64,000 bases of DNA from Holothuria scabra (lineage: Eukaryota > Echinodermata > Holothuroidea > Aspidochirotida > Holothuriidae): positions 11,398,922 to 11,462,921 of the forward strand of contig CM074185.1 of NCBI GenBank assembly GCA_037179385.1, in the 5' to 3' direction. Position numbers and translations under genes: made by a program. This document shows, piece by piece, positions 14,792 through 61,169 of the stretch. The stretch's first letter is position 1; every line of letters starts with the position of its first letter. The notes beneath the pieces are model-generated. The model was not told where the DNA came from and did no database searches. It saw only the letters and a program-made list of their open reading frames with translations.

Positions 14792-17041
14792 ATGGAAAGG
14801 AACTGGGTTTTGCCTTTATTATGGTTGCTAATGCTTACTTCTGTGGTACAGAACGAATGCAGCATCGAGATTCCAGATGCAGAGGTCCAAGAAACAGAAA
14901 TTTCGGGTGGTTATTTCAAAATCCCTCAGCAGGTAATTAAGGATGAAATTTATAGGCGAACTGCTCAAGGTAACGTGTGTGATGGAGGTAAGCTACTAAG
15001 AGAAAGGTTTTTTATTCGAAAAAACAAAAAAACGATTATATTTTTAAACTTGCGGTGTAAATGAACTATTTAATGAAAAACTTATGTTGCAGGTTATTAT
15101 AAAGAAAAGAATGAGTGATTGGGTAAAAAGGATTATGTCGGTTTTTTTTTTTTGGGGGGGGGGGGGGGATACGTAGCTACATACAACTTGGCCAATGTGT
15201 TAATAAAATATAGAAATGAGAACTTATATCGTAATTCCGTTTCATAAGTTTTGTTCCTCGTGTTTCTTCTGACAAAGGGACACTTATTTTTTAACGTAGA
15301 GGCAAGGCGTGCACGAGAAGGGGTAGGATGCGGCGAATGAAAATAACCTCTCTGATTGCATGGTGTGATGAATTTATTAATTCAGTTCACCACGTCGTGG
15401 AAGACTCGTGAACTCGAGCGAAATGACGAATGAGCGATGCCCCTTTATTTGTAAAACACTTCCCGACCATCATCCCCAGCCCGCCTATTCCAGTAAATCG
15501 TTCCTTCGATATATGAACTAGTTTTTGCCTTTTCAAAACCATCTTTCTCTTTACACCCTTACCTTTGTAAACCGCATTGTTGGTACTTCTTTCCTTCACT
15601 TTCCTTTTCCTCCTGTTTTTTTCTCTCTCTTCCCTTTGGTTTTGCACTTTCGCGTCGTCTCATTTTTGCAGTTGGCATGGTACTTTACATGCCGCTGGAA
15701 CTATGTAACCCTTCCAATTTTGAGCAAGAAGGAACTTATGAGGCCTGCATTACTAAAAAAAAAAACATAATAACTTTAAACTTATTAACCTCGTTTTCAA
15801 GTAATAAGTATTTTTCTATGTTATCTTTACGGAAGGAAGTGAATTTTATATAACCTTGAAACTTGTAGGAGGTTTCATACCAAGTTAGTATAGGCAATAG
15901 TATAGGTTAGTATAGGTTAGTATAGCAATCGCTATGTTCAAATCCGTTTAAAATTGATTCACAGTGAATGTTGTGCATATTATAAGCAAGTAAAGTTCCA
16001 CCAAGTGACAGAGTTTAATCCAAAAATTGAAATGTGAATATACCTTGCAAGTCAAATGCGGGGGGGGTCTAGTTTTGAAAGACCTTGCTAATTTGCAATA
16101 TTAGCCTACTTTTTTGAATTGTAGTCTAAACATTTTAAGTATGGTAAACTTCAATATTTTTTTTCCAATGAACGAAGGGGGTTTTCGAATTTAATCTTAG
16201 AAAACACTGAAATTTAACATCCAAACCATATTGTTTTTTGTTGCAATTTCGAGAGGAGCAAAGAGAGTCCACAAGAGTAATATAAATATCCAATCGACAA
16301 ATATTGCTTTGCAAAATTGGATTTCGTCATTTTTTGTTATGTAATAAATCATAATAGCAAGTCTTCTTATACGTAATATAATGTTTTACCGAATCAGACA
16401 TCCAAGACATCCTCATGAAAGACGAAACTGAATGGTCAATCTCAATAGATGTTGGATATGTGAGCCGGTTACATGAGAATGCAAACAGCGATCCGTTCCC
16501 CTACGTTGCCATGAAGATATCTGGAGAACAAGTGACTCTCGGTTTGGGTTACTTCACTACCAAACTTATACAGGAAAACTCACATGGATACGTTGTAGAC
16601 AACATCACATGGTCTGACGGAACGATAACAGTTAAACGTGGTGATGATCATCTCGTTATGCAAATCGAACTGGATAAGGATTGTGGAGAGGAATTGCTAG
16701 GAAAGGCGGCCAACAACCAATCTTTATCAATACTTGAATCATGGTATCCACACAACAAACATATATTCAATTGTGGAATCCATGGATGGCCAAAAAGTGT
16801 GTGTGACCACGTGACGGAAAACATGTGTGAAATCCAGAGAGCAGACAATGACATCTGTCTGAAAGACACTTACGAGGGATGCTGGTGCGGACTCGGGATG
16901 AAAATCATGACAATTACTGGGATCTTCCGGGACAAATCTTTAATGACCTCAAAGACCCCAATGAAGAGTGCTATGGGTTATCGTTTTAATGGACTGCGAC
17001 ACATGGGATTCGTTTATCCGTGCTTGTACCAAGACCATTAG
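14792..17041 (+). CDS. Gene B: secreted 8-cysteine protein of an unrecognised family, two exons
   Basis: Exon 1 is 14792-14987 (GGAG|GTAAGC donor) and exon 2 is 16398-17041 (GAATCAG acceptor, stop TAG), phase 1, giving 279 aa. Start: the ATG before MERNW gives a hydrophobic stretch at residues 6-19 and cleavage near residue 20-23; the open frame runs upstream to 14579, but that extension is not conserved. Exon 1 then carries QETEISGGYF and EIYRRT. Exon 2 opens with EWSISIDVGYV, has sequons NIT and NQS, and a cysteine pattern C-x29-C-x9-C-x7-C-x9-C-x9-C-x44-C, plus C1 (NVCD) from exon 1. An additional cysteine (GCWC) is private to B. Conserved blocks are LESWYP, WPKSVCDH, DICLKD, TGIFR and YPCLY. 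No family was recognised. A soluble, disulfide-bonded, glycosylated extracellular protein is inferred. Confidence 0.85.
14988..16397 (+). other. Intron of gene B
   Basis: 1410 bp, GT-AG, phase 1. It contains a T run followed by a G run of about 17 near 15140-15169 and a small direct repeat of TATAGGTTAG around 15898-15926. No transposon with clear termini and no other exon was seen. Confidence 0.7.
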
Positions 17042-17120
17042 ACAACTTAAAAAGATATAAAATGATGAACGCCCAATCAAAATATGTTAGATTGAGAATC
17101 TGCCCAGATAAGCTTGATTC
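17042..17120 (+). other. Probable 3' UTR of gene B
   Basis: The block TCTGCCCAGAT (about 17098-17108) recurs at comparable distance after D (TCTGCCTAGAT) and E (TCTGCCCAGAT). Further on, AAAGTAAAATC is shared with the sequence after C. This shows that the duplicated units include the 3' flank. No canonical AATAAA was found. Confidence 0.5.
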
Positions 17121-17364
17121 GTTAAAAAAAAAATGTTTTTGCCATGTTCTAAAGTAAAATCTTATAATTATATACAACTTTGTTTCGCGTCTTATACTAC
17201 TGGATCACTTGTAATACATTTTTCGTAGAATTAATGAAATGCAATCTACATCTATCTGTTTACTTCACTTGAACCCGTGAGGGTAATATTTTCATTTGAT
17301 GCACACCTCACACGTAGTAGCACTTAAAGAAATTGGCATGCAGGCTTTAATTCTTTACTTATAC
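17121..17364. other. Intergenic
   Basis: Low-complexity AT-rich flank of gene B with no further feature seen. Confidence 0.4.
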
Positions 17365-18545
17365 ACAGGGGCGGGATTTGATCTCTGAAAGTGGGGGAGG
17401 CAAATGCGGGCAGACTACCAAATGGCGTCGAAGTCGCCGCGGGAGCGCGAAGTGCTCCCCCTAACGGCCTGGGGTCCAGGGGCAAAGCCCCGGTGGGGTT
17501 CAGGGGCGAATCGTAGGTATTAAAATGATGCATTTTATCTTCAACTCTAAATTACATAAGATGGGCACTTAACAGAATACAAATATCACAATTTTACTTT
17601 CTTCAATTATATCCTTACTTCGTATGATTAAAGTCGGCTGGAATCGATAATGCAGAGCGCGCGGGGAGGGAGAATGAACTTCTTAAAATTGAGGTTTTTC
17701 AGAGGCTCCCTCCTTGGTGCCCCAGATCTCCTTTTAGAAAGCTAGGGGCTTTTCGTATGATGTGTATTCAGCCCTTGTCTATGATGGAGCGCGCGTAGCG
17801 CGCCGTAAAATTTAACGTTCAAGACACCTCAATAATGACACTGAATGAAAATTAGAGAAAAGATGGCCAACTTTTAGACTTAGTCGAATAACGGTGCCCC
17901 CTAAAGACATTCTTACTGAAGCACAAATATACTCTGGTTTCCTATATAGTCCTTTTCAGGTGACTCTCACAGAGTCGTTACCTGTAAAGGGGCTCCGCGC
18001 CGAAAAAATGAACTTTTACTTCAACTCAGTGGTGAAATTGAAATAAAATTAGACAAAGAAAAGGTCCCTTCTGACTGAAGCTGAATAAGGGTGACCCCTG
18101 AGGACATTTGTACTAAGCAAAAACGTAACGTTTGTCTCCTATAGAGTCCTTTTCGTGAGATTTTTATAGAGTCCTTATCTGTGATGGGACGCGCAGAACA
18201 CGCCAGAAAGGACTAGTTTTGAGACATCTCAAAAGAGAAATTAATGGAAATTAGAGAAAGTGTGGGGCCCTTTTCACTTCAGCCGAAAAACGGTGGAGCT
18301 CCAGATAAGAGTCGAATAAGATCATCGCCCTTTCAGAAAGCTCGGGGTCAGAGAAGGGGACCAGGAGATGACCGCCTTCCTGCCTCCCCCTTTCACTAGT
18401 TACGGTAGAGCTTCAGCTGTGTACGGCCCGGGCACTGCAGGTGATAAGATTCAGTGACAATGGAAGAGGTGTTCTACAAGAAGTAATGCCAAATCCTGAA
18501 ATATTTAAAACGGGTGCGCGCGAAGCGCGTCGAAAAAGGGAGCGT
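17365..18545. repeat. GC-rich repeat region with degenerate tandem units
   Basis: Starts with CAGGGGCGGGAT, a hAT-like terminus. About three degenerate units of roughly 200 bp follow; they share 'ccttttc', 'gaaaattagagaaa' or 'aaattagacaaag', 'cggtg.cccc' and GCGCG palindromes (for example GAGCGCGCGTAGCGCGCC near 17788, GCGCGCGAAGCGCG near 18517). No matching right terminus was found, so this is a transposon remnant of unproved class. Confidence 0.45.
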
Positions 18546-18617
18546 TGGGACATTTATTGAAAGAGTACTGTTGTTTAGTTTTCAATGAAGTATATGACCT
18601 GTTTAACATTATACAAC

Positions 18618-18921
18618 TTAAAGGCAGTCATTCGTCACCCCAAACTACAGTTTCAGTATACATATATCAAAACTCTCAATTGGTACAGCTCTTTGATTGT
18701 CATCACATTCAAACAATGCGTCATAGCTAAATTAGACAGCGCGGGCACTGAGAGTGTCTAGATTACACATTATGGACTTTTATGGCCACTGGGACAAGCC
18801 ATGAAGCAATAAACTAGGATTGTGCCGGATAAAGATGAGTTTTAGATAAATGTGGGAGGGGCTAGAAGTAAGTAGGTTGGAAGAATTGGAACTGTTTGGG
18901 ATGATGAAAATATGCCTTTAA
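18618..18921 (+). mobile_element. TTAA-flanked MITE, family 2, copy 1
   Basis: 304 bp with ends TTAAAGGCAGTCATTC and an inverted ATATGCCTTTAA counterpart. It is nearly the reverse complement of 22535-22839 and related to 56296-56604. The TTAA at both outer ends suggests piggyBac-type or similar target choice. It is different in sequence from the CCCTTT family. Confidence 0.7.
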
Positions 18922-20108
18922 GTATCACTCGCGTAGCTCTGTCAATTCCAGTTTGTATTTTTGTAGCAAAAGCCACCAGACCAAGACGTAAAAAAACTAA
19001 GTTCTGGAAAAAGATGGGGGAGGGGCAAGTGCCCCGTGCCCCCCATAATCCCACCTATGCTTATACAATGTCAAAAGCCAACCAACACCAATATAGAAAC
19101 CCATTGTCGTCTTGGCTCGACTCACTCATTTTCAAAAAGGAAATGGCTCGAGGTATTGTATCACCGTTTTCGTCATAGAAATAATTCAGATCGACTCGAG
19201 TATCAATAAAATCAACAAAAGACTCATCTCCACTCGATTGCCGCAAATGTTGAATTTTAAATTGCAGATTGGTTTTGGTTGGTTTCAATCATTGTCATAT
19301 GGGGCGGGGACAGTTATATCTTTCGGGCAGCGATGTAATTGTAAGGGCATAGCGAAAGCTTTGTTGCAACAGAAAGCTAAAAACCTTAGCCGAATTATTA
19401 ATAATCTATTTATTTTATCTCATTTATTTTCTCGTACTATTCATGACCAATCTAAACATGCAGCTCTTACTAACTGTTTTATAATGATTCTTTTGCGTCG
19501 CACTTTTGTCCAATTTTGGCACATTTCCGGATAACTTATGAATATATCTGAAATGTACGTTGTGATTAAATTGTCCACAAAAATTATGACAAATTGGAGT
19601 GATTGTGACCAGTAACGAACAAGTGCAAAAGATCATAAATTTGCATGACGACTGGCAACGGGAAGTTCGAGAAGTTAAGGTTGAAGGGCAGTGTCTTCGC
19701 ATTGGCATTTGCCAATGCATCGTTGGTACTAATTGTTGTAGGCATTAAGGAAGGAATGGTGATATGAGGAGAAGGATTACCGTCCGTTACAAATATTGTT
19801 CCAAAGAGTCTATACAACTTGTGTCTCCTTCCTCACAACTCCCTGTTCCCAGGAAATCTCTTAAAACTCACCTTATGGAAGTACTACTTCCGAGGTAGTT
19901 CTTCATGCCCACATAATGCAAATCTGACTACAAACTTAAAGGCATGAGTATGTTTATCAATTAACCTCAGATTTTCATTTTATTGTTCAATAATTGTTCT
20001 GTATCTTTCCAAAAACATTTCCACCGAGTAACTGTGTACTTTTTCTTCTAGTAAAACCTTAACTTTTTTTTAAAAGTAGAGATCTGTATCTTTATTGGAG
20101 TTGTCACT
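18922..20108. other. Intergenic, no gene recognised
   Basis: Open frames of up to 140 codons (19112-19534) occur here on both strands. None shows a recognisable domain, splice context or similarity to the array genes, so I leave them uncalled. Confidence 0.4.
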
Positions 20109-22058: not shown

Positions 22059-24686
22059 ATGGACAGTATCAACATCTACCTTTTGATAGCTTGTTTGCTA
22101 ATTAATTCAGTGAAACAAACCGAAGGTCGAACGGAGATTCCAGATGCAGAGATCCAAGAAACAGAGATCTCGGGTGGTTATTTCAATATCCCCCAGAAGA
22201 TAATTGAAGATGAAATTTTTAGACGAACGACCCAAGGCAACGTGTGTGACGAAGGTAAGCTTGTAACAGACTGACAGATCCCACAAGGGAAGAAAAACGA
22301 ACAAGATCGACTTACTTTGACCATCTTTTAACCAAGTAGTAACTGTCGTGCAAATGCAAACCAATTAAAATGCTGTATCACTTGTGAATAATGAGTTTTT
22401 CTAATCAATGTAATTGTTTCATTGCATATAAAAGGAATCTACCAGCTGTACTTGCAAGACAAATGTTAGATGTTAAGGACGTGGCAATATTCCTACATTA
22501 TCCTTCATAACGTCTTATTTAAAGACGTCGGTATTTAAAGGCATATTTTCATCATCCCAAACAGTTCCAATTCTTCCAACCTACTTACTTCTAGCCCCTC
22601 CCACATTTATCTAAAACTAATCTTAATCCAGAAACAATCCTAGTTTATTGCTTCATGGCGCGTCCCAGTGGCCATACAAGTCCATAATGTGTAATCTAGA
22701 CACTCTCAGTGCCCACGCTGTCTAATTTAGCTATGACGCATTGTTTGAATATGATGACAATCAAAGAGCTGTACCAATTGAGAGTTTTGATGTATGTATA
22801 CTGAAACTGTAGTTTGGGGTGACGAATGACTGCCTTTAAAATAACCAGCTCAAGAATTTCAGAAAGCCTTGAATTATATGCAACAAACTGGCGTTGTAAG
22901 TGCAATTCATAGAAAATGGATTGGTCGCTAGTTGTTATTGTTGGTAGGTTCCGTATGTAACCTTAAGGAAACTGGATGAAGAGCTGACCAATTAAGTTAG
23001 TAAAGCGTTTTATTTCTTAGGTGGGAAAACGACGTTAGCCATCCATTCCACCGACTTATCTTTTACCCAATCAAATGGGCAATAATTTTGTCAAATAAAA
23101 GATAAAACATTTAACCAACTAAGTTGGGTAATGTTTATTACCCAATTCCTGTTAAATTGCATACAAAACCAACCTTCGGGTTATCTGAAGGTTGGAGAAA
23201 CCGAGGGTTTGGTAAAGCGTAACAGCTCGTGTTAGTGCAAATCAGAGACTAAAAGTACAACCCGTGGAGATTTTCGCTCGAGAAGAAAGGTCCTTCCTAT
23301 ATTCATGTTTCCAGTTTGTAGAGAGTCTCGCTGAAGGTTTCTGTGCAGTAAACTAGATTCAATACTCACTAGGCTATATGTTTGTAAGTTACGTGGTGAA
23401 CGAGTAACGTTAAGCCGTGACCTAATGTTGGCTGTAGCCAGCCATATTTAGACAAGCGCCTATACCCATGCTCATTATGCGTTACGACTAACTTTCTATT
23501 ATATCGGTTTGAAACCATCCTAGAATACGCTATATAAATGCTTCAACACCCAGTTTGTCAGTTACAAAAGTTTCTTTCATCAGCCATAGAACAACCATAA
23601 TCTTTGTAAAGCCCATTCTTTCTGCAAATATCGAAGAAATATCCGTTGCCTTCTCCAGATTACCACACTAACCGATTGGGCACTTTAAATTTTGCCCACT
23701 TGTTGTTACCCAAGTTGTTTCAGAGTGAATAATGCAACAAACCAATATGCATGCATTTCCTTAAGAAATCATTAAACGGACCGACGATTTTGTGAAACTG
23801 CGATCAAGCGCCTTTGAAGGTAACCCGAAAAAGAGTACTGATACCCTAGTTAGGGATGAATTTTGATTTTGATCCTTTTTTGATCATTATCTTCTACTTT
23901 TCCAATGGAATAAATGGTAATGGTTTCAATACAATTCTCTTTATATGTGGAATTATTTGCGATTTGATTTTATTTACAGAACATGAATTGTCGTCGTCAT
24001 AATATTGACTTACGCAATACAGTGCTTTTCTTTTTCCAGATATGCAACATATTCTTACAAAAGGCGAAACCGACTGGTCAATCTCAATAGATGTTGGATA
24101 CGTAAATCGTACACAAGGGAATTTATACATTGATCCATACAATTACGTTTTAATGAAGATATTTGGAGACAAAGTAACACTTGGTATGGCTTATTTCACT
24201 ACTGAATCTATACAAGAAAATTCACCTGTCTTTCTTGTAGACAACATCACATGGTCTGACGGGGTGATAACGGTTAAACGAGGTGATGACAATCTTGTTA
24301 TGAAAATCAAGTTGGATAAAGATTGTCGATATAAATTAAAAGGGGAAAGAGCAATAAATCAAACATGGTCAATATTGGATTCATGGTACCCCTTCAAGAT
24401 GCATTTATCCCATTGTAAAACCAAAAGATGGCCAAAGAGTGTATGTGACCACTTAACTGAACACATGTGTGAAATCCAAAGAGTGGACAATGACATCTGT
24501 CTAAAGGACACTTACGAAGCATATTTATGCCAATCTAGTATGGAAATTACTACCATGACTGGGATTTTTCGAGAGAGGTCTTTGATGACTGCACATACTC
24601 CAATGAAGAGTTTTCTCGGTTATCGTTTAAATGGACTACGACGTGTTGGAATTGTTTATCCGTGTCTTTACAACGATGTCAAGTAA
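22059..24686 (+). CDS. Gene C: secreted 8-cysteine family member, two exons
   Basis: Exon 1 is 22059-22254 (GAAG|GTAAGC) and exon 2 is 24040-24686 (TTTTTCCAG acceptor, stop TAA), phase 1, 280 aa. The signal peptide core is IYLLIACLLI at residues 6-15. Exon 1 keeps QETEISGGYF and EIFRRTTQGNVC. Exon 2 begins DMQHIL and DWSISIDVGYV, with sequons NIT and NQT and all eight family cysteines (DC, HC, VC, MC, IC, LC, PC plus C1). The cysteine common just after the signal peptide in B, D, E and F (residue 23) is Gly here, so that residue is not part of the conserved set. The C-terminal tail after PCLY is NDVK. An in-frame upstream ATG at 21960 exists but would bury the signal peptide. Confidence 0.85.
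22255..24039 (+). other. Intron of gene C
   Basis: 1785 bp, GT-AG, phase 1. It holds a family-2 TTAA MITE (22535-22839). It also has stretches around 23040-23170 and 23680-23730 with 'acccaa' and 'ttgggtaa' motifs like those in the elements at 51.8-55.2 kb, probably a decayed relative. Confidence 0.7.
22535..22839 (-). mobile_element. TTAA-flanked MITE, family 2, copy 2 (inverted)
   Basis: 305 bp bounded by TTAA. It is the reverse complement of 18618-18921 with few differences. The two copies form an inverted pair about 3.6 kb apart on either side of gene C's exon 1. Confidence 0.75.
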
Positions 24687-29797: not shown

Positions 29798-32700
29798 ATG
29801 GAAAGATACAGGGTATCGTTTTTCTTTGGTTTTCTATTGATTAATTCAGTGAAACAGAACGAATGCCGCACCGAGACTCCAAATGCAGAAGTCCAAGATA
29901 CAGAGATTTCGGTTGGTTATTTCAAAATTCCTCAGAAGGTGATTGAGGATGAAATTTACAGACGAACGACCCAAGGGAATGGGTGTGATAGAGGTAAGTA
30001 ATTACAAGAAGGACTTTAAAGTTTCCACTACTGGTCTACTAGCAACATCATTGAAAGAAGTAGTAGGTTTGATACTTCATACCCTGTTGTTGCCTCCATG
30101 GAAGTACTAACTCGGGTTCCCACTTACTAGATATCACATTTATTATGCCACTTTTGACTAAAAACATAGCCCTTTCTCGGCGCCTTTAGCACTGCATGGT
30201 GGCAATAAGCTGGGGCATTCAGCAGTGACAGTTCTCCTACAGTGAGACTTACTCGGGTTCAAGTTGAAGTATAAAAAACAGTTATGAAGACGAGCGTGGG
30301 TACCTTGTCACGTGATGCACGAGTAAATGAAAAATCATTGCACTTGCTGAAGAATTATAACAGATGGACGTCGGAGATTTCTGCTTCCCTTTCACTGATT
30401 ACCGTCGTAGGATAACGGTTTGTAAAATTGAAATGGCCAGGGGTGGCTCCAGGATTTGCCCGACAGGGGGGGGGGGGCAGCTTTTTTGAAAGAAATTTGG
30501 CTTTTGTAAAGATCATTTAAAAGTTGGGGTGATAATTAAAGAATCTGTCCTTCATATGGGCAAAATAAAAAACTTTGATATGTAGGAGACAGCTGAAATT
30601 CTTTGGGGGTTACATATTTAATCGTACTAGGTCTACCTACTAAGGCTTCAAGATGTGGCCATTAGTTCGCGTAAAATGTTTTCCCTTTTTTGAGCGAACT
30701 TTTGAAATTAAAAGCTTATTTTATTGGAGAAACTTTGGAATTTAATGTAAGAAAATTTGGTTTTCGGTAAGATTATAATGAAAAAATTGAGGTTTTTATT
30801 CAGTGATATGCAATTTCAAGAGCAAAATTGGGTAGAATGTTGGGATTATTAACAGAATTGGCTTTCATTATTTGTATGAACTATCCATCGAAATTGGAAA
30901 ATTTTGCCACTTTTAAAAAACTGAAGCTTTTTATGGGAGATTCTTTCCTTTCACAGAAAAATTAAGTAGGGGTGATCAGTAGTTTGTTGGGGTTTACCGA
31001 ATGTCATCATGAAGATTAATGCCCTCGAACCATATTGGGAAAATTTTCCCGCGGAAAAAGTTTGGCCTCCCATATGTTTATAGTTTTATATTTTATGTAT
31101 TGGCATAGGCGTACGGGAAGGTTTCAGTTGGGGGGGGGGGGGCAGAATTGTCTTTTTTGTCCGAAAAATGGAATCCTGCTCGAGAGTCTATCTAAGTGGA
31201 GCGCAGAGAAAATTTTCAAAATTGAGAACCCCGAGAGAGCAAGAAATGACATTTCCCGGGCTCGTAACTAAAAACAAAGCAGTCATTATTTTGAGCTTTT
31301 TTTCGCAATAAGATTTTCACTTCATAATACTGCCCCAAAACGAAGAATAATTTGCAGGCATGATTTTTTCTGTTCAGCAATCTGTTCGACCAAAGCACTC
31401 TGCAAGCGGAGCGTCACCACCAGTTGGCGCGGAGCGTAGGAAAATTGTTAAAAAAATCTGACTCCTCAGACAGCCGAAAAATAGCATTTCCCGGGCTCGT
31501 AACTAAAAACAAAGCAGTCATTATTTTGAGCTTTTTTTCGCAATAAGATTTTCACTTCATAATACTGCCCCAAAACGAAGAATAATTTGCAGGCATGATT
31601 TTTTCTGTTCAGCAATCTGTTCGACCAAAGCACTCTCCAAGCGGAGCGTCACCACCAGTTGGCGCGGAGCGTAGGAAAATTGTTAAAAAAATCTGACTCC
31701 TCAGACAGCCGAAAAATAGCATTTCCCAGACTTATAACTAGAAATGAAGCAGTCGTTACTTTGAACTTTCCTTTGAAATGAAATTTTCACTTCAATAAAA
31801 AAAAACTTGCTAAGTGACCAGAAAATTACCAGATAAAAGGTACTGCTACAATTAGATGTAATGGTCTTGTCACTTTTCGGAGGAACTATGTAACGGAATT
31901 GAAAACAAAACTTTTTTGGCCGTGTTAAGAATCTGATTCGTTGGATTTAATTGCAAGGTCCAATAAAAAAGATGAAATTTCCTAACTGCCTGCCTGAACT
32001 ACAGAAAATGATCTTACTTCAAACGTACTGAAAATATTTCACGTAACAAGGTGGCTTCAAATGAATTTTCAGTCAGACTTGTGCAGAGACATTCTCACAC
32101 TAACTGTGTATCATTAAGTATAGCTAAAAATATGGCTGGTTTTCATTATCGTTGCTAGAATTCGGCTGTCAAGGCAGGCTAGATGGCAGACCATTGGACA
32201 CTGCATGCACATGAACAATTTCTCGTCCGATTTTGTAATGAAAATTCGGAAATTTGAGTTTCCTTGAAGAATCTGGTCTTTTAGTAAGTCAAATAGAAAA
32301 AATCGTCCCAGTGACTAAGTTTATCAGGCCCACACATTTTATCGTGGGTGGGTAGATGAAGGCTCCCCCGACGAAGCTGGATTTTCTCATCAACAGGGGA
32401 AGGCAGCCTTCGTCGAGGAGGCATGGCGTTACGCGCAGGGATTGAAGATGGGATTAGGCGGTGTTTATCACTTTTTCATAGCAGAGCTAGTAAGACGTGA
32501 TTAAAACCGATTCAGATACGTATTAAAATAGCGTTACAAAAGAAAAAAGTTCATAAAGAAGAAGAAAATAAAAACCGTTCATGATCATCCATTTAGTAAC
32601 TTAGTTTTTCTGTTCTTAGGCCGCCCCGAAAAAATTTCAGTCCTTCCCCGACGGGAGGAGATAGGACAAGGTACATGGAGTAAGGTACAACAGAGCTACA

Positions 32701-33795
32701 AAGAAGTGATTGAAAATCGATTCCGATATGTATTGAAATAGCATTTCAAAACAAAATATATGTTCAAGATCGCCTATCCAGTCACTTCAGTCCTTGTAGG
32801 GTTTTTTATTATTAGGCCTCCCAGACGAAAGCGACGACCTTCCCCGACCGGGGATGCCCCCCCCCCCCCGCTGGAGCCACCCCTGGAAATGGCATGAACT
32901 GTGGGGTTCCTTCTCCAAAAACCTGTGGTACCAAGCCCTAACTAGTGGAAATAGAGTCCCCAGTAAATGAAAAGAGGTTTACGCTCTGACAAAGGGTCGC
33001 ATCGGGCGCACTAACCTCACCCGACTGACTGACTGACCGACTGACTGACTCACTGTTTCTCGTTACCCCTTTCCTGATGATGGGTGCCTTTTTATTACAA
33101 ATAACAAGGTCTTCATGTTTGTATTATAATGCTTTACCCTTCCATCAGATATACAAGACACCATCATCAAAGACGATAATGAATGGTCAATTTCAATAAG
33201 TGTTGGATACGTGAAGCGCGTTCTAGACGATTCGTACATTCATCCGTATCATTATGTTATTTTGAAAATATCTGGAGAACAAGTGACTTTTGGTCTGGAT
33301 TACTTCACTACTAAACCTAGAAAGGAAGATTCATATGGCTTTGTCGTAGACAATTTCACATGGTCTGATGGGGTAATAACAATGAATCGTGGTGATGATC
33401 ATCTCGTTATGGAATTCGAGCTGGGTAAAGATTGTGCGTACAAATTGGAGGGAACGCAGGCGAAAAACCAAACATTGTCTATACTTGAATCATGGTATCC
33501 CTACAATTTACATTTATCCGATTGTGGAGTCAACAGGTGGCCAAAGAGCGTTTGTGACCATTTAACCGAAAACGCGTGTCAAATCCAAAACGTGGGAAAT
33601 GACATTTGCCTGAAGGACACGAACAACGGATATTGGTGTGGGTTCAGTATGAAAATTATTGCAATGACTGGGATCTTTCGGGAGAGATCTTTGATGACGA
33701 TAAAAACACCGATAGAGAGTTATATGGGGTATCATTTCATTGGCATACGACATTTAGGCTTCGTTTATCCGTGCTTGTACAACGACGAAATCTAA
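29798..33795 (+). CDS. Gene D: secreted 8-cysteine family member, two exons
   Basis: Exon 1 is 29798-29993 (AGAG|GTAAGT) and exon 2 is 33149-33795 (CCATCAG acceptor, stop TAA), phase 1, 280 aa. The signal peptide core is VSFFFGFLLI at residues 6-15; the frame is closed just upstream, so the start is well fixed. Exon 1 differs from its neighbours in QDTEISVGYF. Exon 2 begins DIQDTIIKDD, then EWSISISVGYV. Sequons are NFT and NQT. All eight cysteines are present; the C5 context is NACQIQ rather than NMCEIQ. It ends YPCLYNDEI. The 3' flank resembles that of E closely, suggesting D and E are sister copies in that part. Confidence 0.86.
30438..32885. mobile_element. Non-autonomous hAT-like element with perfect 8-bp target duplication
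   Basis: Ends CAGGGGTGGCTCCAG and CTGGAGCCACCCCTG are perfect inverted repeats. The flanks GAAATGGC (30430-30437) and GAAATGGC (32886-32893) are identical. The CAGGGGTGG terminus and 8-bp duplication are diagnostic of hAT. Poly(G) and poly(C) tracts sit just inside the ends. No transposase-like frame was seen, so it depends on a transposase elsewhere. Confidence 0.9.
31251..31720 (+). repeat. 235-bp near-identical tandem duplication inside the hAT-like element
   Basis: Units are 31251-31485 and 31486-31720. I find one clear substitution between them (CTCTGCAAG versus CTCTCCAAG). A third, diverged partial unit begins at 31721. Each carries 'gcggagcgtcaccacc' then 'agttggcgcggagcgta', a motif pair related to 61916-61949. 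Confidence 0.88.
33018..33055 (+). repeat. (GACT)n short tandem repeat
   Basis: Imperfect CTGA/GACT repeat at the end of a SINE-like stretch (about 32915-33055). Tandem tetranucleotide tails of this kind end the SINE-like copy at 10908 as well. Confidence 0.6.
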
Positions 33796-37842: not shown

Positions 37843-40800
37843 ATGGAAAGTAACAGCGTCTCACTTCTGTTAGGTCTAATATTGGTTATTTCAATGAAAC
37901 AGACCGAATGCCGTACAGAGATTTCAAATGTAGAGATTCAAGAAACAGAAATTTTGGTTGGTCATTTCAAAATTTCCCAGAAAGCTGTTGAAGATGAAAT
38001 TTATAGACGGACAGCTCAAGGCAACGCATGCGACTTAGGTAAGTTACTCACGGAAAGACGGGTAAGTAGTTATAGAAGAAACTTAATACTATTCAATGTT
38101 CTTGCACATCGTCAATTTAGCAAAAGTATGGGCGAAAGAAAAGTGAAAACACAAAGATAATTCAAATAGATGCCATACGTGATTTGGTCAATGCGTATAA
38201 AAAGGTGTAAGTATGTAAAGCAAAACTACAATCTTGGACAAAACTCGTTGGGACACCCCGGCTACCCTTCGCAATGTTGGTCACAGCTAGTTAGCCTATT
38301 CACGGCATACAGTCACTCTTTCGCGCAACATTGGAAGGGGGAGCGGGGGAGGAGGATTCATGTAAGCATTTGAACTGAAATTCAAGAATATTATGGCAAA
38401 GTGTCCCAACAGTTTTGTCCAAGATTGTAGAATCTAATTGAAGTACTTTTATTACGTAATCGTTCAAGTTAATTAATTTCGTTAAAATACAAAAGCAATT
38501 CAACGGTGACTTCAGCGAGAAGGGGGAGGGGACCACCAACGTCGTAGGCGAATGGTCCTTCGAAGTGGAAATTTACTCTCTCATGTGAGTCCGTGGGATA
38601 ATATTTGTAATCAATACTATCCTCAGTCACAAAAACTTAGCTTTCAGCTGCTCATACGAAGTCTTGGTCCTTCAGCTGGACCCGAAATTTCCTTCCAAAA
38701 ACGCAATTTTCATATAGCCTGAACGTTCTTAAAAAATAAAATATATGGAAGTCTTAAAAAAACCTCACACGTATACTTCTTGTGGTCTCGTACACTAAAA
38801 CGACCAATTTTGCGCCCTTGTAATCTTCCATTCTCATCTTTTTAGCGACTTATCGTATTTGTTTGCCCTCCCTTTGCATGTGAGGAACCTGATGCACTAT
38901 CGGGCAGACCCTGGTGCCGCCCTCTGACTGACACAATCGCTTTGATATCCACTTATGAAGGACTTCGAAACTTTGGCATTCTAGCCCTAACGATCTTTGG
39001 GAGACCGGGGATAAACTATGTACCTAATCGGAATTCTTAGAAAAGGGAGAAAACCGACTTAATCTTGAAGACAATTTGTACATAAAAATAACTGAGTTCT
39101 CATAAAGTTACAAAAATGTGATTGGTGACTTTATTGCATTTTGTTGACTTTCCTTCTTATGATCTTGTTTCAACAAGCGGTAATCCGGAAACACCCACCC
39201 CTCCAAAAAAACAAAAAAAAAAAAACAAAAACAAAAACAAAAAACATGTCAAAGTAGACAGTTCTTTGAAGCTAATTGCTTAGAGTGGTCGTGTACTTCA
39301 TTTTGTATTAAACAGAGAACCGGAACATTAGATTTCAGGTCCTCGGTCGGAAACCCAACAGATTTCTGGAGTCCTGATCAATTTAATGTCTATTGTTAAG
39401 GTTACAATTAAGGAACCACGGACAAACCAAAAAAAAAAAAAAAATAATAATAAATAAAATAAACAGGATGTGTGAAAAAACTTTTGTGTAAGTCTACTTC
39501 AATTACAATTTTCTCACACATTTACACACTTTTGATATGTTGTATAATATAAGAGGCTTGTTTCTGTTTGGAAGATCCATAATTCTGAAGGAACGTAATT
39601 GTTTGAAAGAAAAATTAACGGTCGCAATATATGCAGAGTTCATGATTGTGGAAGGGGTTAATCCACACCATCAGTCGTCCAATTACTGGTGTTGCCCTTA
39701 AGACATGATCTCATCGCCGCAAGTACAGTTAAAGTTAGTGTGATCCCTAGGTTTATGGCGACACCCCAATTAAAAAAAAGGCAGTATACAGATCAATGCT
39801 ATACCAAGTTGTCAAATATTCAAGTCTCTAAATATGTCACTCTTCTGTGCAACACCGTAGGGTCAATAACTTTCAATACCCCATCACAAGGTCATCGTAT
39901 ATTCAAATACCAAAATAAACTTTTTAAACTGCATCAAATACTTTCTAAAGTTTAGACTTACTTTACGGCTCTCAAATATTTACCTGTCCAAATGTACATA
40001 AGTTCTGTAAATGAAACTATACATAATTCCTTTTGTTTGACATTTGACATAATTCCAAAGCGTTTGGCGTTATAAGCCTGGAGTAACTGTAAAAATATTT
40101 CATCTCATAAATGTCGTCTTCTTGCAAACATTTCCTGAAAGGTATAAGTAAGTAGCCATGACAAAAACTTTGGGTCAGTTAACTGTTGCATAAAGATGCA
40201 CTCTCTTCTTGAAGGGAGCTGACCCAGTTCTCATATGGTCCGCTGAATGTTATGCAGCAAAATAGGCTGGCACAAAGCAATTTCGTCCCTTACATAGATC
40301 AGGGAGTTGTCAGGCAACTCCCTGCATAGATCTCTTTTCAAGCACAAACTACGATATTGTTCTGCCCCGTCCTTTGCTTCCACCCTTACATCTACTCAAT
40401 CATCCAATCATCCTCTACTTCAAAATGGCACCTTATCGGGAGTCTATTTCCTCACTATTTGAACAAAACTGGAAAACTCACTTGAACCCGTCTTAATCCA
40501 AAAACGTTTAAATTTACTTTTCATAATCTTTTAAACAAAACTGTCTTTTCAATTTTCTACTAAAACCCCACTCCATAATTTGTATAGCACTAGGTGTCAC
40601 ATTTCATTGTAATGATATTGGGTCTCTTAAAATTTGTCATTAAGTTCCCTTACCTCATTTTCTCCCGTTTATACATTACAATAAATAACATCGAACTTTC
40701 CACTTTAAGCAAACCCTTTAATCCGAGCCATACCTTCTTAATGAGAAACACCGATTTTATCGCACATTAAGTATACTGAACCAGAGATGTGTAATGAAGG

Positions 40801-42179
40801 TGATACAACGTTCTTTAGACTCTTTCAAGTCATGTTCATATTCAACGCCCATATTGCTGTTTTTCAATTTTTTTTATTTCAACGTCGTAATCAAAAATAG
40901 GTTAGTCATGCGTTGTCAGTATAACAATGAAAAGGTTCATCGATTAAGCGAGACCCGTATATCTAAGCAAATATATAATATTGTGCCATTTCGTCGTGAT
41001 TCATCACACTTAATATGGTGATTTTTTACTGAAGGCAGCAGAGAACTTCTATAAATCATTCTTTTCAAAGATATTAGTAAATGATGGGGAAACAATTGAA
41101 TTACAGTGTATCGTATTGCTACCGTTAAGGCTTAGATGTACAGTAATATCCCTCATTTCATGAACAATACAGAATCGTTTGAAATATCACTATTCCCCCT
41201 CTGTGTTACCACGACAAGCCTGTCTTATGACAGTCTTTTTGGCTCACTTGCCTTTCGCAAAGTTCTTGACTCCCCTCCTGTTTGCACTTCTAGAGCTGAG
41301 AATATGTCTTTATTATATCCTCGTCCCCTCTTTCCATTTTCTTTTTAAAAAGAGGGGCTAATTCCACCACTAGAAGAGAGAAGATTTTCTGTGCTCTTTA
41401 AGTAGATGCCACATGATATCATTACTGAAGACGGCAAAGCTCCCTCCAGGGCTCTCTGTGTGTTGACCGTACCCTGGATAAAAATTACTGATGTCTCCAT
41501 TTACGTAATATGTCTTCCCCTTTTACCAGCTATACAAGACGTCCTCATAAAAGAGGAAACTGATTGGTCAATGTCAATCGACGTTGGATACGTAAAACGG
41601 ATATTAGAGAATGAAGACATTCATCCGCATACCTTCCGAAATATTGTTATGAAGATATTTGGGGAGCAGGGGACTCTAACTCTTGCTTACTTCACTGACA
41701 AACCTATTGAAGAAACCTCAATTGGAATCGTTTTTGACAACATCACATCGTCTGACGGGTTGATAATAGTGACACGTAATGATGATCATCTTGTTATAGA
41801 ATTCGAACTCGATAGAGATTGTCAAAACACGTTGAAGGGAAAACAGACGATAAATCAGACTTTTTCAATGCTTGAATCATGGTATCCATACAACAACCAT
41901 ATATCCAATTGTGGAAGTCATGGATGGCCACAGAGTGTGTGTGACCATGTGGCAAAAAACATGTGTGATATTCAACGAGCTGGCAATGACATTTGTCTGA
42001 AGGACAATTTTAAGGGATACATGTGCGGACTTAGTATGACAATTACGGCAATGACCGGAATTTTTTTGGAGAAGTCTTTGATGTCCGCCACTAAGACCCC
42101 AATAAAGAGTGCTATGGGTTATAAATTTGATGGCATGCGACATATGGGATTTATATATCCGTGCTTGTACGAAGACTAA
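37843..42179 (+). CDS. Gene E: secreted 8-cysteine family member, two exons
   Basis: Exon 1 is 37843-38038 (TTAG|GTAAGT) and exon 2 is 41530-42179 (TTTTACCAG acceptor, stop TAA), phase 1, 281 aa. The signal peptide core is VSLLLGLILVI at residues 6-16. Exon 1 keeps QETEI and EIYRRTAQGNAC. The junction codon gives Ala in place of the usual Asp (AIQDVL). Exon 2 has DWSMSIDVGYV, an extra residue in the variable segment (HPHTFRNIVMK) and another before the TP motif (ATKTP), sequons NIT and NQT, and all eight cysteines. It ends YPCLYED. The frame is open upstream to 37717, but that extension is not shared by the paralogues. Confidence 0.86.
38229..38427. mobile_element. Tc1/mariner-like MITE
   Basis: 199 bp flanked by TA on both sides. 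The ends CAATCTTGGACAAAAC and its inverted counterpart extend to about 28 bp of near-perfect terminal repeat, with a single extra base in the left arm. TA duplication and short length fit a non-autonomous Tc1/mariner element. Confidence 0.8.
39205..39466 (+). repeat. A-rich microsatellites
   Basis: Two runs, CAAAAA-type at 39205-39245 and poly(A)/AAT-type at 39430-39466, separated by ordinary intronic sequence. Confidence 0.6.
40296..40334. repeat. Strong hairpin in the intron of gene E
   Basis: AGATCAGGGAGTTG pairs with CAACTCCCTG and, after a short bulge, GATCT; the loop is TCAGG. The perfect core stem is about 10 bp. It could be a structured RNA element or a transposon end; nothing else supports either. 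Confidence 0.5.
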
Positions 42180-45080: not shown

Positions 45081-47464
45081 TGCGGGCGGCCGTTAGGGCA
45101 AAAAAGACAAATGAAAATATTCATTTTAATTTCAAAAATAAATTTTTAAAGTAAAAAATATACAAAGTATAAAATTTAAAAAATACATCAAGTAACGGTT
45201 AAATTTTAAAAGCGAGCAATCCGTATTACGTCACAAAACAATAAGAAAAGTACTAAAACAGTTACATTTAATCTTAAAATTAACACATTACCGGTATATC
45301 CAAATAAAATATTAAAGAAATAAAATAAAAAGACAAATAGAAACAAAATTTTGTGGTTTTGTTTTATTTTGTGTTTTCATTTTATTTCATGTTATCTGTT
45401 ATGTTTTTTCTTTAATTTATTTGGGTTCTTTAATATTTTTTAGAGTAGTCTTTTCCCCCTGTTGGAGCGCTAAAAGCCTCCAACAGGGCTAAAAAGACAA
45501 TTTACGAAAAAGACAAACTGCGAAAAAGACGATTCGCGAAAAATGATGAGGGCGTCCTGAGATTGACGGATTGAAATGATGACTGCGCGGCCTCCTTTTA
45601 CTTTGAAAAGACAACCATGCGATTGTGAAATGTCGAACTTTCACGGCATGAAAATGAATCATGATTTAGCAGGCCGTGTAACTCAAATTTGCTTACAATT
45701 TCCACACAGAAACATGAACACTTTGGTCTGCGTGTTTTGCCAAACTTTGGGTCTTTCACACCTTTGGCAGACTACACTAGACCCTTTGGGGCCAATGGAG
45801 TGAGCACGTTATATCAATATGGTAGCATCCTCATATGGATTCCTTAGGGACCTAATATAGATCATCGTATGGGCCCTTATATGAACTTGCAACCAAAATT
45901 TGTAAGAGGTTTATTTTGCCCGGCCAGCACATATGCCCATATGGTCCATATGGGATAGATACCCGTATGGGGTAGTTGTCCACGTAGGACCCTGAACTAT
46001 CCCATATGGGTCATATGGGCATACATGGGCTACCTGCAGAAATTATGAGCTCCGTACACATTTTGCCGAAGGACTGAACGGTGCCCTCATTAGTTCCATA
46101 TGGAAGGATCAAACAAACTGCTCAGTGAACTTGACGTACCCTGAGGCTTCACAGGAACCTTCATGCTCAGCCGGCCAGTTTATGCATGACAAACTACCCA
46201 TCGAAAGCGGGCTAATTCTTGGGCGTGGATCCTTAACGGGAGGGGCGGGGGACGCTCCCCCCTCTTTTTTGGAAGGGGGGCATCTTCCAAAGCTTTTTCA
46301 AAAATGACGGAACACACAGCAATTATGCCTAGGAAAACGAGATTTTTAGAAGAAAAATAACTTGCTCTAGCAATCCAACACTTGATACACCAAATAACAC
46401 CAAATAGTATCTGAGGGCATTCAGTTCCAAACCAGATTCCAAAATAGAGGGGAAGAATCCTTAGACTTATCCCCGCCCCTTAGACCCCACCCTCATGCCA
46501 ACGATCACAGGTCATATCCCCCTCCGAAATTTACGAAACGAAACGATTTACGTGACGAAAATTATGACTACGCCATTGCTCCTTCCACCAGGACGGCGAT
46601 TCACAAATGATGAAAACGTCCCCGACACTTTCATCTGATCCCTCCCCCACCTCTTAATTGATTGCTTTGGTAGCAGAGAGAAAACGTTATCACTCCATGG
46701 AGGTGTCATTAGCTACTAACACCTCCCCGATCAACTCAGACTGTCCATTGATGTACGTACTGCCTTGGTACATGCTCCGCAACGAAGGGAGTGTATGGCT
46801 GCAAGTCGCGGTGACTTTAACTGGTTGTACAGGTTTGGATATCTAATGTGCTGTCCAGGTACAAATACAGAAATCGGTGCTCTGAATCCATCAATCTCAA
46901 GACGCCCTCATCATTTTTCACGAATCGTCTTTTCCGCCGTTTTTCTTTTTCGCATATTGTCTTTTTTGCCCTTTTGGCCGTCTATAGCGCACCAAAACAA
47001 AAACAACAAAAAAAAAACAAAAAAAAAAAAAATTAGATTTTAAAAAATATGATAGAACCCAAATAAATTAAAAGAAAAAAAAACAGATAACAAGAAATAA
47101 AATGAAGACACAAGATAAAACAAAAACACAAAAATTTGTTTCTATTTGCGTTTTCAGTTTTTTTCTTTTTATTTGTTTTCCCTTTTTCATTTATTTGGGA
47201 TCTCTGATATTTCATTTGGATATACCGGTAATGTGTTTATCTGAAGATTATTTATAACTATTTGTAGTATTCTTTTTAATTGTTTTGGGACGTATTACAT
47301 ATTGATCTTTTTAAAAAGTGACAAATGTTACCAATGCTTATTTAATTTTTAAATATTTTACTTAGAATAATTTTAATGTTTAAAGTTTATATTTGAAATT
47401 AAAATGAATATTTTGCCAGTTGTCTATTTTGCCAGTTGTCTTTTTCCCCTAATGGCCGCCCATA
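45081..47464. mobile_element. Foldback-type element with long inverted arms
   Basis: 2384 bp flanked by GTAAAG on both sides (45075-45080, 47465-47470). The ends TGCGGGCGGCCGTTAGGG and its inverted counterpart start imperfect inverted arms of roughly 480-580 bp (45081 to about 45573, and about 46881-47464), including repeated 'aaaagac' motifs and 'attaccggtatatcc'. The core between them is about 1.3 kb with no recognisable transposase. Long arms resemble Foldback/Galileo-type elements; superfamily is not established. Confidence 0.75.
45922..46033. repeat. CATATGGG-rich palindrome in the foldback core
   Basis: CATATGCCCATATGG and TCCATATGGGATAG (about 45929-45957) pair almost perfectly with CTATCCCATATGG and the following CATATGGGCATA (about 45998-46025). 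The arms are about 30 bp with about a 40-bp loop, itself containing CCCGTATGGGG. Confidence 0.65.
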
Positions 47465-49078: not shown

Positions 49079-51500
49079 ATGGACAGTTACAGGGTTGCTT
49101 TTTTGTTTGGTGTTCTTTTTGTTACCCCTGTGAAACAGATCGAATGTCGCACCGAGATCTCAAATGTGGACATCCAAGAAACAGAAATGTCTGGAGGTCA
49201 TTTCAAAATCCGTCAGAAGGTGATTAAAGATGAAATTTACAGACGAACTTCCAGAAACAATGTATGCGACCGAGGTAAGATTTTCACAACAGGGCGAGAT
49301 AAACTACAATTGTTTTATTACATAGAGCTTTGTACCACATAAGGTTACCTTGCTACTTTTAGACGTTGTTTCAGTATTTCTGGGAGACAGGGATAATTTT
49401 TTCATGCATTGAAAGTTTGGACCAAATTGTCCGACCAAAGGACATATTAATAATGTTCATGGTTTTCTCATTTGCTGGAATGAATCCACATTTCTTGTCC
49501 GAATAGGGATTCCATACGCCTTCTTTCCTTGTGCCCTTTAATGCTTTTGTCGCAAAATATAAACGAAAACAATTTTGAGGGTAAAGAAGGATAAATCAAA
49601 CATGTTTACCTTAGGTACCGAACCCTATACAGTTGAGGAAGTATGTATATTGGCTTGCATTTTAAGGGAAAGAAACATTACAAAACCAAAGGGGAAACGC
49701 AGTGTCCCTAAATCGTAATAGTGTAGTAGTCTATCCTATTCCATGAATGGCTCTGGAGAATCACGTTACAATATTTTTTTTACTGAAATTTAAAATAAAT
49801 GGAGTATAACACATTGCTTTGAATTAGATATGCAATATCACGTCTTGAAATATGACTAATGATAAGTGGCAGAGAATCAGTAGTGAGAATAAACCAGTAA
49901 AATGTTGTTTAAAAATGAGTTTAAGGCCCCCTGCTCTTACCCTTTAAGTTCAGTCTTGGGCTTCTTAAAGGAATGAGAAACTATGTTTTATCCATATTCT
50001 TTTGAAAGCTTGTAGTCTGGTGGAAGTTTACAAACGACGCCATTTTAGAACACAAAACAAACAATTAATCTACTCTGACAGTTCGTTGATTAAGTTTGGT
50101 GTAAGTATCGTGAGTACTAACACTAAAAGGGTCATTTATTTTTCCATAATTATGCAGTTAACTATGTTATTTCAGCTTCAAAGGGAACCGTAACTGTCAA
50201 GTAAGACATGATGAGATATGTTAAGGTACATTTCATCTTTGCTACATTACCCTAAAGGACAGGTGATAAAATTCATTTTGATTAAACCCATACGGCGCTG
50301 ATAGAAAAAAGATGTTTTCACATGAAATCATATCAGTTTTCTCAACTAAAAATTACTGTCATTGTGTTTTGACAGTTGTTGTGTCGTTTCTTTCTCAAAG
50401 CAACTCGTATGTTAATTAACCAAACGATACTGATAAATAAGTTCTCTTCGAATGCAAACGTAGAAGCGGATAACATATAAGACATTGTCGTTAACACTTT
50501 TATGGCATACCCTTAATAACTTAAACAACGTTGGCATCAGGCTGCAAATGCAAGTTCAAGAAAAGAACATTGAAAGTGCCCCCAGATTCTTACACTAATT
50601 GGATTTCAGTTGTCATCCCGTCCCGTTGCTATGGAAAATCGAATTTAAAATTGAAAACAAATATTTTCTTGCAAATACGTTTAGAGTTGACTCTATTGTA
50701 GTAATTAATGCGGATATTGATTGTGTTTTGCAGACTTCTTAGCCCCTTACTGTAACAGTTTTGTCACCGTTCTCTCTTAACTGTGTAGTTCATTGTTCCG
50801 TCATTTTGAAGGCACATGATATATTGTCAATGTATGATTTACGCTTTGTCCTCCACCAGATATACAAGACATCCTGATACAAAACGAAACGAAATGGTCA
50901 GTATCAATCAATGTTGGAAACGTAAGGCGGGAAGGTAATTCAAGTATTGATCCCTATCACTACATTGTTATGAAGATATTTGGAGAACAAGTGACTCTTG
51001 GTCTGGCTTATTTCACTACTCAACAATTACAAGAAAACCCGTATCTCTTCGTTGTAGACAATATTACATGGTTTGACGGAGTTGTAACAGCCGAACGTGG
51101 TGATGACCATCTCGTTATCGAATTCGAGCTGGCTGAAGATTGTCGCAACAAATTGAAGGGGAAATCCGCAAAAAACGAGACATCGTCAATTCTTGAATCA
51201 TGGTATCCATACGATATACATATATCTGATTGCGGTGTCCACGAATGGCCTACGAGCATGTGTGACCACTTGGCGGAAAACATGTGTGAAATCCAAAGAG
51301 TTGACTATGACATCTGTATGAAGGATACATTTGATGGATACACCTGCGGATTAAACATGAAAATTATGACAATGAATGGGATTTTTCAGGAGAAGTTTTT
51401 GCTGAACGCAAAGACTCCAATAAAAAGTATTACCGGTTATCACTTTCAAGGATTGCGTCGAATTGGAATTGTTTATCCGTGTTTGTATACCAATAACTAA
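49079..51500 (+). CDS. Gene F: secreted 8-cysteine family member, two exons
   Basis: Exon 1 is 49079-49274 (CGAG|GTAAGA) and exon 2 is 50860-51500 (CTCCACCAG acceptor, stop TAA), phase 1, 278 aa. The signal peptide core is VAFLFGVLFV at residues 6-15. Exon 1 keeps QETEMSGGHF and EIYRRTSRNNVC. Exon 2 starts DIQDILIQNE and KWSVSINVGNV; the first Met in exon 2 is internal (50970), so the exon start comes from the acceptor and homology. It has the shortest variable segment (RREGNSSIDPYHY). Sequons are NIT and NET as in the paralogues plus a private NET near the exon start. All eight cysteines are present (DC, DC, MC, MC, IC, TC, PC plus C1). It ends YPCLYTNN. An ATTAAA at 51654-51659 could serve polyadenylation. 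Confidence 0.85.
49275..50859 (+). other. Intron of gene F
   Basis: 1585 bp, GT-AG, phase 1. No transposon with clear ends was found. An open frame at 50002-50193 is not supported as an exon. Confidence 0.7.
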
Positions 51501-58573: not shown

Positions 58574-58601
58574 CAATTATCACTTAAATTGTGGCTCAGT
58601 C

Positions 58602-58794
58602 ATGACCAGAAACCGAGTTTTGCTTTTGATAAGTTCTTTTGCTTTCATCAGTGAACAGGATGAATGGCACATTGAGTTTCCAGATTTGGTGACCCAAGAA
58701 ACCGAGATTTCGTGTGGAAATATTAAAAACTTTGAAAAAGAACTTAAGGATGAAATTTATAGACTGACGAGGCAAGGCAACGTGTGTGATGGAG
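58602..58794 (+). pseudogene. Copy G: orphan exon 1 of the 8-cysteine family
   Basis: An ATG and 64 codons plus one base, one codon shorter than other copies, then an intact GGAG|GTAAGC donor. The signal-peptide-like core is VLLLISSFAFI at residues 6-16. QETEIS, DEIYRLT and GNVCDG are conserved, but the middle (CGNIKNFEKEL) is diverged and adds a cysteine. No exon 2 can be found before exon H at 60974, only 2.2 kb away, so G is either a relic or splices past H. The upstream box is also lost. The donor phase is kept, so an alternative first exon for the H body is conceivable. Confidence 0.7.
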
Positions 58795-60225
58795 GTAAGC
58801 TTTGTTTTGCAACTTGTTATTTGAAAATTTAATAAAGAAGAAAATATTGATTGAGTTTGAAATAGATGACATTTGTTTATAGCATTAAGTGTTGTCTTTT
58901 ATATCAAGGAGAAATCAATAACCATGCTTAATTGCAAAATAATACACTTACCAATTTAACTTTAGTTTTGAAAGGTGTCTTTATGATGCGAATTTCTCTT
59001 TTTCGTGACCTTTGGGGCCGTGTTATGGTTTGTATTTAGAACCAAAGAAAAACAGTCAACTGCTGCTATTACATAAAATAACAGCTATTTTCCAACAAAT
59101 GCCGTTTAAAACAATTAACTAGGTTAGTTCTATGGGATAGGCAAAAAAAGCAAATTTATTAACACACATACAGGGGGCATGGGCTCACTCCTATTGCCCT
59201 AGTCTTACAAACAGCCGTCAGTCGCCTCATTTTCCCCCATAATTGTCAGATATTTTGTAGCTCATGTGAAGCAATTCATACAAATTGTGAAGTTTGCCAT
59301 TTGTGGTGGCTTGGCAATGGAATAACTCGTCTTTTGTTGCCGTGACATTCTTCTGTTTCGTTAAACTGTTTTTAATGAACTGCAACATTTTAGAAGCAGG
59401 AGGGTTTTCATTTATTTTTCTTGTGCTTTTTTAAAACAAAATTGATGTAATTGAGCCCTTTGAAGGAAGTCACAGACGTTTGAAAAATCTTCGAAAAGCG
59501 TGTCGGTAATTCAACAATACGAATATCGTAAATTCTGTACAAAAACAGTCACTCTTAATCTTGCAACTTTGTCAGTAATTAGCTCATCACCGGCTTGCTC
59601 ACCAGACATTTGTTTGCATCTTGGTATTCTGCGACTCTGCAACTCTGTCTATATACTCTCTTCACGTGCTATTTCACGTGGTTTACTAAGTATATCATTA
59701 AAAGTTTCACAGGACCTCTGCTTCTCCAGACACTGTGTGACTGATGATATCATAGAACTTACAGTGATAAGGTCCATTGTTTCTTTCTGTACGTATTCAG
59801 AGAGAATTTGTACTTCCGTCAAAACATTTGTGGATAATTTAACTATAACTAGGCACTCTAATTTAATCGAGTGAACTTTTTGCATCTGCTCTACTTTCAG
59901 CAGATATTTCGTCAAGGGGCTACAATGTTTTCCAGAGCTAATAAGAGTCCAGGGTACAGTTTCTTCACAGCTTTAAGGGCCAGGCTTTCCCTGACGTTCG
60001 CAGTGTTTTCGAGTAGACGGAACTATATGTTTCCAAGTTGCCACTTTAACAGGAACTACCACTTTAACAGGTATTTCCAATTTTAATGCTGGAGTAGTAC
60101 ACTTATTACAAAAATACTGAAAAATTTCTGCTGAAATTGAATTCATAAGTCCAAACATATTCACTAAAGCAGTGTTCCATGAATGCAGATCAAATCTTTG
60201 TTTTAATGTTATAGTTGGTCAACTT

Positions 60226-60360
60226 TCTCTCTCTTTGTTCCTTTCCTTTCACTTCTAAATTTCCTTTCCCCTTATGTTTCCATTCTCTTTGTTTCTTATG
60301 CCTTTCTTTCCTTTCCTTCCCTCTCTTCCCCTTTCTCCTCTTCCCGTTTCTCTTCTGTCC
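60226..60360 (+). repeat. Polypyrimidine tract
   Basis: About 135 bp almost entirely of C and T with only a few purines, composed of CCTTT, TTCCC and CTCT runs. It is capable in principle of triplex (H-DNA) formation. Confidence 0.7.
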
Positions 60361-60782
60361 GGGGGCAATGTGCCCTCCTTACACCCCACTGGTTACTCCA
60401 CTGCAACCCTTTGGGTTCAAATGGTTATACCCCAAATGTCTCCAAAGGAAATTTTCGACTAGGTAAAAGAAGAACACCATTGGCAAAAATTTTAGATTAG
60501 TCGAAAAATTCAGTTCATTTGCTGGTCTATCAGCAGACTTTTCAATGAAAGCATCAATTACAAATGGCTATATATTTCCTGAAAACCGTAAGGTCCATTG
60601 GGTGATGCGTTTCGGGCATCTTACAAACAGCAGTTCCGTGCAAATAAAAAATACAGAATTGCCCACATTTTGTGGCTGTTGTTGCTGTGTTTAATTCTAC
60701 GTCTGTTTGATTCAGTTCACCGATTTTAATGAAAAGAATTACGCCTTAAGACACGACTGGATGAATCCTACTATAACGTTCG

Positions 60783-60842
60783 GGGCGTTGCGCACCAACA
60801 AGAAATTTCCTAACTTGCTAACAATTAAGCTAATCCTTACAA
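60783..60842 (+). repeat. Dispersed repeat, partner at 10081-10140
   Basis: Same orientation and order of shared words as 10081-10140 ('caagaaatttcctaact', 'gctaacaat'). Unclassified. Confidence 0.45.
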
Positions 60843-60973
60843 CAGAAATAAAAATTTCCTTGTTAAACATTGCGTGTCAGCCGGAGCGTTCTAGTAGATG
60901 TGAATAAGGATTTATTTCTGGGTAGGAATTCACTAGTAAACGATAATTCATTAAGGCGACCAATTAGTGAAAA

Positions 60974-61169
60974 ATGGATAATTGGAAAAATTGCTTCCTG
61001 ACTGTGTTGCTTCTTTACGGTACATTTAAACAAAATGATAGCAGAAAAGAGATTCCAGATGTAGACCTACAGGAAGGTGTGTTAACGACAGGATATTTCG
61101 CAATTCCCCAGACGGTGATTAAGCATGAAATTTTTCAACGGACGAAGAAAGGCAAAGTTTGTAATTCAG
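60974..61169 (+). CDS. Copy H: intact but divergent exon 1 of the 8-cysteine family; exon 2 not in window
   Basis: Exactly 196 nt as in B-F: ATG, hydrophobic core CFLTVLLLYG at residues 7-16, the linker KEIPDVDLQE, then GYFAIPQTVI, HEIFQRT and C1 (KVCNS). The donor is TCAG|GTGAGT. The frame is uninterrupted. Divergence from B-F is about as great as G's, but length and donor are preserved, so it may be functional. No exon 2 occurs in 61170-64000; with introns reaching 3.5 kb in this family and two transposons inserted here, it probably lies past the right edge. The TAATAAAG block and CAG before the ATG are not evident. Confidence 0.65.

Follow-up and report, generated by a model that had tools for sequence, protein, structure and literature searches.

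A tandem gene array in a probably invertebrate genome may belong to a disulfide-rich superfamily with an acetoacetate decarboxylase-like fold

Contig C7 carries a tandem array of two-exon genes that encode cysteine-rich proteins. What fold do these proteins have, and what might they do? We studied a 64,000-nucleotide stretch of C7 (the window; about 38% GC) which covers part of the array. An earlier note on this stretch, made from the sequence alone, had described a tandem, diversified, secreted 8-cysteine family that it did not recognize and whose fold it could not place; it had named immunity, gamete recognition, and mucus as roles that such families often have. We propose that the array is a branch of a large, disulfide-rich superfamily with the fold of acetoacetate decarboxylase (ADC), in a eukaryote that is probably an invertebrate, and that its members are binding proteins, not decarboxylases. 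We give this proposal a probability of about 0.6. It is built on the exon structure, purifying selection, relatives across the genome, and, for one of these relatives, an ADC-like model predicted with confidence.

Five intact two-exon genes and their tandem array

The window contains five intact two-exon genes, g1 to g5 (14792-17041, 22059-24686, 29798-33795, 37843-42179, and 49079-51500). Each has a leader exon and then a large second exon, with a GT-AG intron whose phase is identical in all five. The genes have 278–281 codons each, and the stop codon is 2–4 residues past a YPCLY motif. So the earlier note was right about five complete genes with a stop just after YPCLY, and its signal peptides are supported by the hydrophobic leader. 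In window coordinates, the exons are:

14792..14987, + strand: g1 exon 1 (leader and N-terminal segment up to C63)
16398..17041, + strand: g1 exon 2 (beta-rich part and Cys-rich C-terminal part)
22059..22254, + strand: g2 exon 1
24040..24686, + strand: g2 exon 2
29798..29993, + strand: g3 exon 1
33149..33795, + strand: g3 exon 2
37843..38038, + strand: g4 exon 1
41530..42179, + strand: g4 exon 2
49079..49274, + strand: g5 exon 1
50860..51500, + strand: g5 exon 2
58602..58794, + strand: lone exon 1 (no exon 2 found ahead of the next exon 1)
60974..61169, + strand: g6 exon 1 (partner exon 2 is past the window end)
65203-65861 (window-equivalent; C7:11464124-11464782), outside the window: g6 exon 2, intact
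~8615..8831, - strand: inverted diverged copy, exon 1 (apparent GC donor; no equivalent of C63; ends read by eye; weak tblastn match, E = 0.006)
7508..8163, - strand: inverted diverged copy, exon 2 (in-frame TAG at ~7835-7837; no equivalent of C209)

Two lone first exons had been reported. The one at 58602 is indeed alone, but the other belongs to g6. The inverted copy is real: its exon 2 is 28–30% identical to those of g1–g5. It has a single in-frame TAG and has lost two of the eight cysteines that the other copies share (the equivalents of C63 and C209).

g2–g5 are 60–65% identical to g1. In total, g1 has 10 cysteines and g2–g5 have 9 each; the extra cysteine of g2–g5 is within the first 23 residues. 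The 8-cysteine scaffold and the two sequons of the earlier note are common to g1–g5, but not to every copy, as g6 lacks the first sequon and the inverted copy lacks two of the cysteines.

On the contig, the array extends over about 162 kb (C7:11406453-11568794). Past the window end, it continues with copies that carry frameshifts or stops. Farther downstream come two second exons, L038 and L042, whose matches contain no stop; L042 is inverted. We infer that tandem duplication creates the copies, which are then kept or lost (birth and death).

Relatives across the genome

A search of the genome with g3 gave at least 105 matches: 32 fall on C7, and the remaining 73 are spread over 15 further contigs (tallied by hand; for large families, these counts are lower bounds). 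Among the 73 matches outside C7, 60 had E ≤ 0.01, 67 lacked an internal stop, and 60 lay in open frames of at least 200 codons. A cluster of 23 relatives lies within 1.11–2.26 Mb of contig C8. Searches of protein sequences found P0002 alone, or P0002 and P0004 (both with source code lgn).

We took up 48 of the 73 relatives, and 47 of these went into an alignment (A4) of 55 rows, together with the five window genes, g6, P0002, and P0004. L066 was excluded because its open frame is truncated. When we compared a profile of six array-type proteins to a profile of the 47 relatives, the probability was 99.8% (E = 6.6e-28), versus 0.2% for a reversed control. The match covers residues 109–276 of g1, with the seven cysteines of exon 2 in register, and leaves the first 108 residues uncovered. 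The array forms a single branch within a superfamily that occurs genome-wide, with 60 loci or more.

Of 45 testable relatives (L066, L097, and L098 were left out), 42 have an AG acceptor of the same phase, with a pyrimidine-rich tract, at the first aligned residue. In the relatives, one exon holds what the array genes split over two, so the intron position differs between the branches. The array intron lies after the first conserved cysteine, while L048, L051, L054, L056, L064, and other relatives have a same-phase acceptor before the whole domain. The intron has moved, or was gained and lost, between the array and the distant relatives. With a strict filter, no leader exon was found within 1.5 kb at any of eight loci of distant relatives, nor in about 3 kb for two paralogues on contig C5.

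P0002 falls together with one of the array's downstream pseudogenes (support 0.994). If P0002 is from another species, then some of the duplications predate the species split. In viral contigs, 57 stretches matched a search pattern, and none of them encodes a relative.

A predicted ADC-like fold

The earlier note could not name the family, and sequence searches gave no significant match to a named one. With Pfam, we searched the five second exons, two pieces of the inverted copy, the members of alignment A2, three more sequences, five relatives, and all 55 members of A4. No family reached its cut-off in any listing, and the weak, scattered matches vary by member. Sequence searches of PDB gave nothing for one window protein or for the profiles A2, A3, and A4, and a single match with E = 1.7 for L054.

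The alignment with genomic relatives led to a confident ADC-like model of L071, which is a relative and not a window gene. In a fold search with this model, the best matches were ADC-type proteins, and the matches from PDB were all ADC-type. The matches listed include no BRICHOS, lipocalin, or ependymin, although their absence there excludes nothing. The best match in a viral structure library had an E value of 0.095. On the L071 model, the superfamily would have the ADC barrel fold, so that a fold which had seemed impossible to place can be placed, as a prediction.

The family differs from the known ADC superfamily (PF06314; 3bh2, 3bgt, and 3c8w; MppR, 4jm3; Swit_4259, 5upb) in several ways. 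It has no detectable sequence homology to it: comparing profiles with hhalign against 36 bacterial ADCs gave a probability of 0.1%, and reversed controls were equal. PF06314 is absent from the 25 families listed for the 55 members; the listing already reaches E = 0.31 in its weakest row and hence conceals nothing significant. Also, the family lacks a conserved lysine, is cysteine-rich, and has an extra Cys-rich helical segment, and the array genes are eukaryotic, are spliced, and encode a leader. Judged by their listings, literature searches gave nothing on acetoacetate decarboxylase as a secreted, invertebrate, metazoan, echinoderm, or sea cucumber gene family.

We also considered that the likeness to ADC might be convergent or an accident of modelling, with a new alpha+beta fold that shares the barrel arrangement. 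The silence of the sequence profiles fits this explanation, as do the TM-scores of the fold matches (0.31–0.41) and the extra Cys-rich helices at residues 155–178 of the model. Given ADC-type proteins as the best matches to a confident model, we consider it unlikely.

Constraint on the array genes

The ratio of nonsynonymous to synonymous substitution rates (dN/dS or omega) was 0.17–0.32 in 15 of 15 pairs of full coding sequences by NG86, and 0.23–0.40 by YN00 in the 10 pairs of 15 for which it was computable. Codon models gave omega of 0.30–0.31. At kappa = 2, the log-likelihood was -4305.9 with omega = 0.3 and -4397.6 with omega = 1, so the former is better by about 92 log units. Introns and flanks have only a few short stretches in common among copies, while the exon-2 products of g1–g5 are 55–65% identical and omega = 0.3 is strongly preferred over omega = 1, so the likeness across the array is more than chance.

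We used our own implementation of site models on 274 gap-free codons from six genes, which gives small power (and the branch lengths were only scaled when fitting M7 and M8). Neither M1a versus M2a (2ΔlnL = 0.68) nor M7 versus M8 (4.39) was significant at 2 degrees of freedom. Because omega is 0.30–0.31 and the site models gave no gain, these six genes are constrained and positive selection is unsupported. The array genes are under purifying selection, as the earlier note had argued from the roughly 280 open codons. Its tandem arrangement also stands. A role of the array in immune or gamete recognition, through copies that positive selection has diversified, is improbable: leader peptides, tandem arrangement, and many copies with broken ones among them would suit that role, but the low omega and the non-significant site models argue against it, within the power of six genes.

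A barrel that would bind

ADC enzymes act through a Schiff base on a lysine. By column counts rather than a residue-by-residue map of the site, lysine fills at most 35 of the 55 rows in any column of A4, and no lysine is invariant among seven array-type sequences. The best-kept residues in A4 are C155, C165, C183, P239, and C240 (54–55 of 55 rows), followed by F207, G205, D112, and P219 (50–54 rows). The pattern is most simply read as a disulfide-stapled barrel which would bind rather than catalyze, judged from conservation and not from superposed residues.

It seems quite improbable that the proteins are active ADC-fold enzymes that use other residues, or a lineage-specific lysine, to act on small keto-acids or other carbonyls. 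In favor are the leading fold matches, all of them enzymes or enzyme-like proteins, and two residues of L071, G110 and D112, which 48 and 51 of the 55 rows retain. However, there is no family-wide conserved lysine, and conservation is strongest at residues of a structural kind, mostly Cys, Pro, Gly, and Phe.

A relationship to OAF is very improbable: OAF and BRICHOS-type secreted proteins (PF22873, PF14941) are similar in length (about 280 residues), leader, Cys-rich C-terminal part, and short WYP motif, and one of 55 members matches OAF_C (16.6 bits, E = 0.007; a lead pursued via PMC9714404), but that score is under the 29-bit cut-off, OAF_N is not among the families listed for the 55 members, hhalign against human OAF gave 0.3% over seven columns (both profiles are shallow), and the best matches of the L071 model are ADCs.

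Cysteine pairs could not be read from co-loss. All 14 sequences in A4 without C194 also lack C41, and 21 lack C41 alone; eight array-type rows are counted among the 21 because their first cysteine is in exon 1, outside the alignment. In the inverted copy, the missing cysteines are instead those equivalent to C63 and C209. We propose no pairing.

Returning to the binding barrel, we propose that the window genes would share the ADC-like fold of L071 by homology. The leader would send the proteins out of the cell, and the cysteines would form disulfides that staple the barrel. Because there is no conserved Schiff-base lysine, the barrel would no longer decarboxylate. Instead, it would hold or display a ligand, which could be a small carbonyl, a hydrophobic molecule, or a surface. 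Tandem duplication with birth and death would yield binders of related but different specificities. Lipocalins and insect odorant-binding proteins are expanded families of secreted ligand carriers. By analogy only, they resemble what we propose: they are secreted, with many tandem copies, a cavity, and disulfides in many members.

Other features of the window

About 20–60 bases 5' of the start codons, most of the five intact genes have an AATAAA-like box and then a TCATTTT-like motif, which is possibly a core promoter. Around the first exon of g2 is an inverted repeat (18618-18924 and 22532-22839), with arms that are 97% complementary and about 3.6 kb apart; it may be the footprint of a mobile element or an inversion. 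Within the g3 intron are two adjoining 235-base copies that are 99% identical (31244-31713). Nested inverted repeats at 45256-47263, with arms 76–86% complementary, resemble a palindromic mobile element. At 5072-6619 is a tandem array with a 156-base unit, in which a 300-base reference recurs in nine registers at 85–90% identity. It contains two open stretches, of 101 and 108 codons, and the one that we compared to Pfam had no match. Ten other open reading frames in the window had no significant Pfam match, and the window has no tRNA and no Rfam match at the gathering threshold.

Significance

More tentatively, an ADC enzyme fold may have been turned into an undescribed superfamily of extracellular, lysine-less, disulfide-stapled binding proteins in a eukaryotic lineage, probably invertebrate, with at least 60 loci in one genome, diversification by tandem duplication, and a life style like that of lipocalins or odorant-binding proteins. 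If so, a whole superfamily that matches nothing in Pfam would carry an ADC-type fold that was recruited for an extracellular job. This would give a structural handle on dozens of uncharacterized genes in the same genome, and a family without matches would become a testable question: what does the barrel contain?
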